DNA of 64,000 bases, taken from the NCBI RefSeq assembly GCF_026191725.2, contig NZ_CP120863.1, forward strand, positions 538,001 to 602,000. The letters run 5' to 3'. Shown one piece after another: positions 4,648 to 6,136 of this stretch. The position numbers were made by a program, and so were the translations under genes. Source of the DNA: Roseibium porphyridii. GTDB taxonomy: Bacteria > Pseudomonadota > Alphaproteobacteria > Rhizobiales > Stappiaceae. Numbering within the stretch: position 1 is the stretch's first letter; every line of letters begins with the position of its first letter. The notes under the pieces are model-generated. The model was not told the DNA's origin. It searched no databases and saw only the letters and a program-made list of their open reading frames with translations.

Positions 4648-4782
4648 TGTTCTGACGAGCTCAGGCTTCGGCATTCTCACGAAGCCGCGAGGGCGTCACA
4701 AGACTTGTTCTTGCTGGAGTTTTTCCACGCTAAGGGTTTGTTTTTGGCAATTCAGTAAAAGCTTCAGTTATATTTGACGTAT

Positions 4783-4831
4783 TTAAGTAACGTGCTGCAC
4801 ACGGCGCTGTGAATTATGTATTCTTAAGTAA
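4783..4831 (+). promoter_or_regulatory. Paired TTAAGTAA boxes upstream of secreted protein gene, copy 1
   Basis: TTAAGTAA occurs at 4783-4790 and again at 4824-4831, a 41-base step or about four helical turns. The second box continues as AACAC. The same pair with a 40-base step precedes the second copy. Such spacing suits a protein binding both boxes on one face of the DNA, but the binding factor is unknown. Confidence 0.5.
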
Positions 4832-4907
4832 ACACGTCATCACATGACGGTTATCCGTGTTTTTTTCTCGAAATCAATCCCCACATGAGGTTTGCAGCGT
4901 TCAAGAG

Positions 4908-4983
4908 GCGCAAGCAAGATGCAGTATCGAAGTTTCGGGGCGGCATCAAATCTTAAACGAGTAAACAAACACGGAGCTTTAAA
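4908..4983 (+). promoter_or_regulatory. Conserved 5' leader of secreted protein gene, copy 1
   Basis: The stretch around GATGCAGTATCGAAGTTTCG and GGGCGGCATC is identical in the two copies. GATGC and GCATC can pair, enclosing a small CGA/TCG stem. The conserved ACGGAGCTTTAAA before the ATG supplies the ribosome-binding site. A post-transcriptional role is inference. Confidence 0.45.
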
Positions 4984-5358
4984 ATGCGTACTATCAAGAA
5001 AACACTGTCAACTGTTGTTGCAGCTACTTTCGTTTCCGGTGCTCTCATCGGCGGTGCATTTGCACAATTCCCGGATCAGTCCGTTGGCGACCTGAATGGC
5101 AACAACCCTGTTTCTATCCAGCAGATGCGGATTGCGAACGAAAAAGCACTGCGTTCTTCCGGCAAACTGAGCACCAAGAGCTTCGTCAACCGCGCTGCAG
5201 TCGCAGACTTCCCGGATCAGACAGTTGGTGATTCAAACGGCAACACTCCGGTTCCGGTTCGTGCACAGGCAACGCGCAAGACCGACAGCAACCTTCTGAT
5301 CCTGCCTTTCATCGGCGACTGGAACGGTAGCGGCAAAGACGGTTTCCCGCGTCAGTAA
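4984..5358 (+). CDS. Small secreted D-x-N-G repeat protein, copy 1
   Basis: I do not recognise this 124-residue family. It has a clear Sec signal peptide with cleavage after AFA (residue 27). The mature part carries FPDQSVGDLNGNNPV (residues 29-43), a near copy FPDQTVGDSNGNTPV (about 76-90), and a third looser unit IGDWNGSGKDG near the C-terminus. D-x-N-G loops of this type resemble the calcium loops of FG-GAP/VCBS and dockerin repeats. There are no cysteines. The ATG has GGAG six bases upstream. It is one half of a tandem duplication and probably exported to the periplasm or outside. Confidence 0.8.
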   Translation: MRTIKKTLSTVVAATFVSGALIGGAFAQFPDQSVGDLNGNNPVSIQQMRIANEKALRSSGKLSTKSFVNRAAVADFPDQTVGDSNGNTPVPVRAQATRKTDSNLLILPFIGDWNGSGKDGFPRQ

Positions 5359-5389
5359 TCTTCGACCCGAAAAACCTCCCGACTAAAAA

Positions 5390-5426
5390 GAAAGGGCCGC
5401 GCTCCGAGCGTGGCCTTTCTTTTTTG
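5390..5426 (+). terminator. Rho-independent terminator after copy 1
   Basis: GAAAGGGCCGCGCT pairs with AGCGTGGCCTTTC around a short CCG loop, and a TTTTTTG tract follows. It lies about 30 bases past the stop codon. A matching hairpin follows copy 2. Confidence 0.85.
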
Positions 5427-5464
5427 TTTTGAGGAAGAAAATATGCGGATGGATGCTGCTTTAC

Positions 5465-5512
5465 TTAAGTAAACAGGTAAACACAGCAGCGTGAACTCGT
5501 ATATTTAAGTAA
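5465..5512 (+). promoter_or_regulatory. Paired TTAAGTAA boxes upstream of secreted protein gene, copy 2
   Basis: TTAAGTAA is present at 5465-5472 and 5505-5512, a 40-base step. The second box lies 151 bases before the ATG, compared with 152 in copy 1. Both boxes continue as AACA. The flanking bases have diverged while the boxes have not, which argues for selection on them. Confidence 0.5.
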
Positions 5513-5588
5513 ACACCAGTTCACATAGAGGTTATTTCGGTTTTTTTCTCAAAATCAGTTCCTACATCGGGTGTGCAGCGTTGATAAG

Positions 5589-5663
5589 ACGCAAACAGAT
5601 GCAGTATCGAAGTTTCGGGGCGGCATCATTTCTTAACTGAGTAAATACATACGGAGCTTTAAA
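5589..5663 (+). promoter_or_regulatory. Conserved 5' leader of secreted protein gene, copy 2
   Basis: It repeats the leader of copy 1, including the GATGC...GCATC pairing, the inner CGAAGTTTCG element and the ACGGAGCTTTAAA ribosome-binding region. Differences fall mainly between these elements. Confidence 0.45.
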
Positions 5664-6038
5664 ATGCGTACTTCCAAGAAAATCCTGTCGACTGTTGTTG
5701 CAGCTACTTTCGTTTCCGGTGCCCTCATCGGCGGCGCTTTCGCACAGTTTCCTGATCAGACTGTCGGTGATCTGAACGGTAACAACCCTGTTTCCATCCA
5801 GCAAATGCAGATCGCTAACGCCAAAGCACTTCGCGATGCCGGCAAACTGAACACCAAAAGCTACGTCAACCGCGCTGCAGTTGCAGACTTCCCGGATCAG
5901 ACAGTTGGTGATTCCAACGGCAACACTCCGGTTCCGGTTCGCGTTCAGGCAACTCGCGCCAGCGACAGCAACCTGACGATCCTGCCTTTCATCGGCGACT
6001 GGAACGGCACTGCCAAAAAAGGTTTCCCTCACCAGTAA
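5664..6038 (+). CDS. Small secreted D-x-N-G repeat protein, copy 2
   Basis: This paralogue of the gene at 4984 also has 124 residues and differs at about 17 positions by eye count. The signal peptide, both FPDQTVGD-x-NGN-x-PV units and the PFIGDWNG unit are kept. Changes cluster in the linker (residues 49-67) and the C-terminal tail, where the last loop reads GTAKKG instead of GSGKDG and so loses an acidic residue. It has its own boxes, leader and terminator, so the two copies can be expressed independently. Function unknown. Confidence 0.8.
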   Translation: MRTSKKILSTVVAATFVSGALIGGAFAQFPDQTVGDLNGNNPVSIQQMQIANAKALRDAGKLNTKSYVNRAAVADFPDQTVGDSNGNTPVPVRVQATRASDSNLTILPFIGDWNGTAKKGFPHQ

Positions 6039-6069
6039 GTCTTTTCAAGAGCATCTGCTCTTGAGAAAA

Positions 6070-6104
6070 GAAAGGGCCGCGCAGTTTGCGCGGCCTTTCT
6101 TCGT
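6070..6104 (+). terminator. Rho-independent terminator after copy 2
   Basis: GAAAGGGCCGCGC pairs with GCGCGGCCTTTC around AGTTT, followed by TTCGTT. It closely matches the copy 1 terminator. Confidence 0.8.
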
Positions 6105-6136
6105 TGGAGCCAAGCCCTGGGTTTGCAGCTCCTTCT

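Follow-up and report, generated by a model that had tools for sequence, protein, structure and literature searches.

Two tandem genes for predicted exported repeat proteins in Roseibium porphyridii, with their leader and 3ʹ hairpins

Introduction

Why would a bacterium keep two neighbouring genes for nearly the same small exported protein, each with its own regulatory DNA, and to what family do such proteins belong? The question is raised by a locus in a 64,000-nt stretch of the Roseibium porphyridii genome (C1:538001-602000; hereafter the window, in whose coordinates the positions are given). The original prediction described two 124-residue secreted proteins with about 17 differences, each gene having its own boxes, leader and terminator, and each protein having two FPDQ-x-VGD-x-NGN-x-PV units and a looser IGDWNG unit. 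It knew no named family with this pattern, took the duplication as a sign of selection either for dosage or for two slightly different products, and named a taxon-restricted family with conserved motif pairs as support for novelty and a strong match to a characterised family as the opposing outcome. Here, we report a computational analysis of the locus, of its relatives and of the RNA elements on both sides of the genes.

Results

Organization of the tandem pair

Both units are housed in the window interval 4648-6136, which runs from plsC to a gamma-glutamylcyclotransferase-like gene (Table 1). The two 124-residue ORFs were found as described, with a count of 17 differing residues. Direct-repeat analysis placed unit 2 at an offset of 680-681 nt from unit 1, the repeat spanning the boxes, leader, coding sequence and 3ʹ hairpin; together with the AAGTAA cores (at 4785, 4826, 5467 and 5507) and the hairpins, this bears out that each unit has its own boxes, leader and candidate terminator. 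The identity between the units is uneven, with 30/30 in the leader hairpin, 85% in the coding sequence, 80% in the 3ʹ hairpin (where the loop accounts for five of the six differences and a C/T in the stem for the other), 73% from box to leader and 39% in the spacer between stop codon and hairpin. No third copy was found in the 5.94-Mb genome. The copy in Labrenzia sp. THAF82 is 100% identical to copy 2. Both FPDQ units and the IGDWNG unit are present in each protein, the latter reading FIGDWNG; what had been called a looser unit is better described as part of a conserved C-terminal tail, GDWNGTxKxGFPHQ, carried by most family members.

Table 1. Features of the two tandem units, in window coordinates
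Feature	Coordinates	Strand	Basis
Upstream box 1 of unit 1, AAGTAAC type, 41 nt ahead of box 2	4785-4803	+	
Box 2 of unit 1, AAGTAAACA-N5-TCACA	4826-4844	+	Genome-wide pattern counts
CGTT of unit 1 at the EcfG -10 position of relatives; no GGAAC -35	4898-4901	+	Sequence compared with relatives' promoters
Leader hairpin of unit 1, GATGC...GCATC	4918-4947	+	
Copy 1, 124-residue repeat protein, predicted Sec-type signal peptide at about residues 1-27	4984-5358	+	Cleavage site from sequence and alignment
Family-specific 3ʹ hairpin (putative terminator) of unit 1, with bulged G	5390-5419	+	
Upstream box 1 of unit 2, overlapping palindrome TTTACTTAAGTAAA at 5460-5473	5467-5485	+	
Box 2 of unit 2, AAGTAAACA-N5-TCACA	5507-5525	+	
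CGTT of unit 2 at the EcfG -10 position; no GGAAC -35	5579-5582	+	
Leader hairpin of unit 2, same sequence as 4918-4947	5598-5627	+	
Copy 2, 124-residue repeat protein, predicted Sec-type signal peptide	5664-6038	+	
Family-specific 3ʹ hairpin of unit 2, facing the convergent gamma-glutamylcyclotransferase-like gene	6070-6099	+	Terminator-like in the generic scan only on the minus strand

A protein family found in one genus

Protein database searches returned 18 homologues at first and 46 later; those with names are Roseibium, Labrenzia and 'Stappia sp. BW2' records and one 'Pseudomonadota bacterium', and the rest are metagenome proteins. A profile of the 18 homologues was run against 87 genomes from the taxonomic family and matched 24; within the window's genus, 24 of 45 genomes carry the family, including the window genome itself, and the profile search found it in 0 of 42 genomes from six sister genera. 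All convincing matches among 397 genomes of the order lay in the window's genus, and the window genome was the sole match among 385 genomes of the class, where in both searches about 10-11 candidates were scored per genome and distant members could escape, the 87-, 397- and 385-genome sets share some genomes, and the profiles include proteins from part of the genomes searched. Plasmid records gave no match, and neither the leader hairpin nor the 3ʹ hairpin was found in viral contigs.

Four out-of-genus matches in the 397-genome search (E 0.004-0.009) turned out to be artefacts once their frames were read: one frame is signal-peptide-like, one is unrelated, and two are one solute-binding-like protein, presumably of the TRAP-transporter type, with a signal peptide similar to that of the family. 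The Pfam hits LapA_dom, Phage_tail_fib, DUF5437 and similar were rejected (E 0.03 or worse), a PDB 'pullulanase' hit (E 0.014) was an alignment of signal peptide and low complexity, and the UniRef label 'DUF4148' on homologue P0034 was not reproduced by Pfam. Among the matches listed in a literature search on Labrenzia/Roseibium proteomes, EcfG and the general stress response, no title concerned the family. There was no credible relation in Pfam, NCBIfam, PHROG, PADLOC or PDB; none of the libraries searched contains the protein family, and it is restricted to the window's genus in the searches made. The original prediction thus held on this point: no named family with the pattern emerged, the profile search returned a taxon-restricted family with conserved motif pairs, and no strong match to a characterised family came from the libraries searched.

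Promoters and upstream boxes

To describe the promoters, we used the upstream regions of 28 of the 32 family genes, the set being without two G044 copies, the G065:C1 copy and the truncated G061 copy. GGAAC-N16-CGTT, which a Rhizobium etli study gives as an EcfG promoter (PMC3892343), was present in nine of the 28 regions, at -101 to -109 (shuffles, 0.003 regions per set). Near variants, GCAAC-N16-CGTT in three more regions and GGAAC-N16-CGTA in one, brought the total to 13 of 28 (shuffles, 0.32); in Sphingopyxis granuli, EcfG promoters are reported with GGAAC or GCAAC and the -10 variants CGTT, TGTT and CATT (PMC7083833). Over loci L001-L073, a redundant set of 533,340 strand-bases that includes the real sites, GGAAC-N16/17-CGTT occurred 23 times. 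The related proteins of L049-L057 all (9/9) fit the looser GGAAC-N16/17-CATT or -TGTT, at -104 to -120 (shuffles, 0.09). L049-L056 (match at about 1500-1880) represent another secreted repeat family within this genus, with GD[LA][ND]G[ED]xPL units and with the CATT or TGTT form of the promoter in 8/8 fetched; this family had no match in the window genome.

Neither window copy has a GGAAC or GCAAC -35 element at 16-17 nt from a CGTT-like -10. Together with nine relatives they form a box-type class without an EcfG promoter, and L021-L024 (4/28) fit neither class. The 5.94-Mb genome has three occurrences of TTAAGTAAAC, all at this locus (reversed control, 6), AAGTAAACANNNNNTCAC occurs 10 times in the 45 genus genomes, always upstream of family genes (reversed control, 1), and the tandem AAGTAAAC boxes of the window copies are confined to family genes within the searched genus. 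In seven of the 11 box-type regions the AAGTAA cores are paired, 40-42 or 31-32 nt apart, that is, about four or three helical turns. CGTT stands at the EcfG -10 place in six of the 11, the window copies included, and is missing in the other five; its distance to the leader hairpin is 15-16 nt in the window copies and 16 nt in L016. A sigma-70 scan gave no clear promoter for the window units, with one weak plus-strand match at 5478-5505 and a count of two (shuffle mean, 0.8). A perfect palindrome (TTTACTTAAGTAAA) is also found in the upstream box of unit 2. In L016-L020 and L025, upstream of the EcfG promoter, a CRP-like palindrome GTGA-N6-TCAC is found in 6/6 and an AAGTAA box near -232 in 5/6.

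In eight genomes, plsC and the gamma-glutamylcyclotransferase-like gene flank the box-type gene, and two box-type copies of G065 have neither neighbour in the fetched flank. Across the eight genomes this interval holds differing family subtypes (124, 123, 129 and 118 residues), as if its resident gene had diverged or been exchanged.

These promoters resemble those of the EcfG regulon, in that GGAAC/GCAAC-N16-CGTT precedes 12 of 28 family genes and the related subfamily has the CATT/TGTT variants; the window copies differ, as they lack the -35 element and have tandem boxes instead. The NepR model PF18557 had no match in the window genome, G000, although this is a short model that matched only one of 14 named control genomes (Caulobacter). 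The family is very probably rooted in a stress regulon. Since NepR was undetected in the window genome, any tie of the window copies to stress is one that we infer; these copies have somewhat less than an even chance of being stress-induced. Likewise, we infer the rewiring of their promoter, because they have no EcfG -35 and CGTT stands in only six of 11 box-type regions.

Leader and 3ʹ hairpins

The 30-nt leader core GATGCAGTATCGAAGTTTCGGGGCGGCATC occurred seven times in the 87 genomes when up to three mismatches were allowed; all seven occurrences had no mismatch and all were in leaders of family genes. They belong to three species, two of them (in G044) repeating the window species, and the genes behind the other five have mutual dS of 0.29 to 1.39. 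In the short subtype, hairpins of different sequence and similar frame take the same place. Across nine short-subtype leaders, 85.7% of the cells in the outer stem are paired and six two-sided changes were counted (reached in 0/500 shuffles), whereas the number of pairs with two-sided changes did not exceed the shuffles (69/500 reached it), and conservation of the hairpin frame in these nine related leaders is suggestive only. Since RNAalifold found no structure common to 11 box-type leaders, it is the 30-nt core that carries the leader claim. The leaders of L021-L024 (last 118 nt to the start codon) are predicted to be very stable, at -45.5 to -54.0 kcal/mol, and contain a CCAATCT that can base-pair with AGATTGG at the ribosome site.

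The window genome has two occurrences of the 3ʹ hairpin (GAAAGGGCC-loop-GGCCTTTC), both of them at this locus. Its exact pattern was found 28 times in the 87 genomes (reversed-pattern control, 7), and 27 of these lie just behind a family gene: 26 at 17-105 nt past an intact family ORF and one past a truncated ORF at a contig edge, the remaining one being unrelated. The pattern search required the consensus, and variants were found only by reading behind protein matches; the remaining five family genes have such a variant, so that a hairpin follows all 32 profile-found family genes. In an alignment of 29 hairpins, without the two G044 copies (same species) and the truncated copy, 97.5% of cells pair and five of the 14 pairs are invariant. 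By eye, 25 of the 29 have G as the extra nucleotide of the 5ʹ arm, L009 has C and L026 has T, and in L010 and L030 this nucleotide has a pairing partner; the terminators of the related subfamily look less uniform, again by eye. A generic terminator scan called the unit 1 hairpin on the plus strand and the unit 2 hairpin on the minus strand only, with a count of three against a shuffle mean of 2.3.

A fixed stem sequence is not needed for termination alone. The conservation of the stem could be due to common descent, to its use on both strands or to an extra RNA role, any one of which would suffice. The strongest competing explanation is that the RNA has a second function, the 3ʹ segment being released or bound like an sRNA or acting as a protein-binding terminator, and the 30-nt leader acting as a cis-regulatory element. 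In its favour are the presence of the hairpin at every family gene, the absence of any of the window's four neighbour genes from the fetched flank of 19 of 30 tested loci, the nearly fixed outer stem against a spacer so different between the copies, the covariation of the inner pairs (14 two-sided cells, reached in 0/500 shuffles) and the identity of leaders whose genes are so far apart in dS. There is also a precedent in UdsC of Rhodobacter sphaeroides, reported as a stress sRNA derived from the 3ʹ untranslated region of a small hypothetical-protein gene (PMC9779115); in description, the two cases have in common a notable 3ʹ element behind such a gene, and in ours the release of an RNA would be hypothetical. 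However, purifying selection on the protein itself is very strong, the weaker covariation measures stay within the shuffles (pairs with two-sided changes 40/500, further pair types 453/500), shared ancestry combined with a function on both strands could suffice to fix the stem of a terminator, and Rfam 15 gave no match at gathering score in the window, the matches around the locus being sub-threshold (best, Leu_leader at 26.7 bits vs 50). We regard a second RNA function as unlikely, if still the most serious of the rivals.

Selection on the two copies

The tandem pair is present in three of the 87 genomes, namely G000, G044 (same species) and G069, a sister genome, and hence in two species. 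Between G000 and G069, copy 1 has a dS of 0.285 with a dN/dS of 0.013, and copy 2 a dS of 0.413 with a dN/dS of 0.044; between the two copies of G000, dS is 0.488 and dN/dS 0.178. The low ortholog ratios indicate that both ORFs are coding, and both are under strong purifying selection. Orthologs (94% and 91% nucleotide identity) are closer than paralogs (85% and 84%), and 13 of the 17 copy-specific residues are the same in G069, indicating that the duplication predates the split of the two species and that the differences between the copies have been maintained since before it.

Gene dosage, with a single product and neutral differences, would fit the 86% identity of the proteins and their shared motifs, boxes and leader. 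It sits poorly with the residues retained in the sister species, with the low dN/dS in both copies and with a tandem pair in so few genomes, and we consider it improbable. Of the two alternatives in the original prediction, therefore, two slightly different, maintained products are the better supported.

Protein anatomy and comparison with known proteins

A Sec-type signal peptide, G-D-x-[NST]-G-[DNES]-x-P-[VL] units and, in most members, the C-terminal tail make up the architecture of the family. Lengths are mostly 122-132, 113-120 and 100-109 residues, and the tail is missing from the 100-109-residue proteins. The alignments show the Sec features of a basic n-region, a hydrophobic core and an A-x-A site, with A25 in at least 90% and A27 invariant. 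The protein is almost certainly exported and expressed. AlphaFold with 44 sequences gave a mean pLDDT of 53.7 and a pTM of 0.20, values at which no fold can be claimed; the mature protein is probably poorly structured, and the low pLDDT may reflect the shallow 44-sequence alignment rather than disorder. One 63-residue homologue, P0044, is without the middle and joins the mature start to the GDWNG tail, a structure that points to recombination inside the gene.

That the protein is a precursor of secreted peptides, cuts at the repeated A-x-A before D[FY] freeing signal or antimicrobial repeat peptides, is highly implausible: the second FPDQ unit does repeat the mature start with its small-x-A motif in 29 of the 44 aligned proteins, and the two units of copy 1 are 74% identical across 68 nt, but the motif is expected anyway from a duplicated mature start, the 113-120-residue proteins lack it internally and the adjoining genes look, in our reading, like housekeeping genes.

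Could the units be EF-hand or dockerin loops? The consensus of such loops has ligands at positions 1, 3, 5 and 12 and Gly at position 6. The family shares the D-x-[NSD]-G-[DNE] opening and, in the low-confidence model, a helix after it, but its units rarely have Gly at position 6 or Asp/Glu at position 12. In 113 family units, counted with positions 1, 3 and 4 fixed by the search pattern, position 5 was D/N/S/E in 75, position 12 was Q/H/R in 80 and E in six, and G was outside the seven commonest residues at position 6. No EF-hand or dockerin model was matched in Pfam scans of 2, 26, 5, 4 and 8 proteins (E limits 1 or 10). Membership of either family fails on these scans and on loop positions 6 and 12, and cation binding has no backing from such a match; weak binding of cations by the D-x-N-G loops is possible but less likely than not. 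In Sphingopyxis granuli, one of the EcfG promoters studied stands ahead of a gene for a protein with a putative EF-hand domain (PMC7083833).

PRC-barrel secreted proteins offer another comparison. L057, of the same genus, has three GDANG-type units before a Pfam PRC domain (L057:1207-1791, PF05239, E 2.9e-08), whereas the window proteins have no PF05239; L057 is a possible link between the repeat proteins of the genus and PRC-barrel secreted proteins.

Discussion

The two ORFs are coding and under purifying selection, the family is restricted to its genus in the searches made, and the cis elements are linked to the gene. Exported, poorly structured envelope proteins from a stress regulon are the most likely biochemical identity of the products, as far as sequence can tell; many relatives have stress-response promoters, so the window proteins are probably envelope stress proteins.

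The following course of events would fit. The family would descend from genes of the alphaproteobacterial general stress response, and many relatives at other loci retain the EcfG promoter. In the window's lineage, at the plsC/gamma-glutamylcyclotransferase-like interval, that promoter would have been rewired, the window copies keeping CGTT and losing the GGAAC -35, and the two boxes, about four helical turns apart, would probably bind a dedicated regulator. The short transcript would carry the fixed 30-nt hairpin ahead of the ribosome site and the 3ʹ hairpin, which probably set translation and stability. Its product, a mature protein of about 10 kDa presumably exported by the Sec route, would with its G-D-x-[NST]-G units probably be an envelope or extracellular protectant, perhaps one that binds divalent cations weakly. 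The reading as a whole, two diverged tandem Roseibium-only genes of stress-regulon origin with a rewired promoter and an exported protectant as product, seems to us about as apt to be right as wrong.

A bolder version is possible but doubtful: a genus-private, 'RNA-framed' secretion cassette, in which the protein, the 30-nt leader hairpin (in the window's branch) and the sequence-fixed, bulged 3ʹ hairpin would evolve as one unit, which duplication would have carried to several loci. Beyond termination, the 3ʹ hairpin would then serve as a regulatory RNA or be bound by an RNA-binding protein dedicated to it, and the tandem boxes would have a transcription factor of their own.

Exported proteins of stress regulons that are confined to one lineage are common and seldom explained. 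This family offers clear handles on them: one class of promoter occurs in the relatives and another promoter in the window's lineage, the two copies are old and their differences have been maintained, and both RNA elements turned up in the searches with this gene only. In culturable marine bacteria, one could directly test whether the promoter was switched, whether each copy has a function of its own and whether the terminator has further duties.
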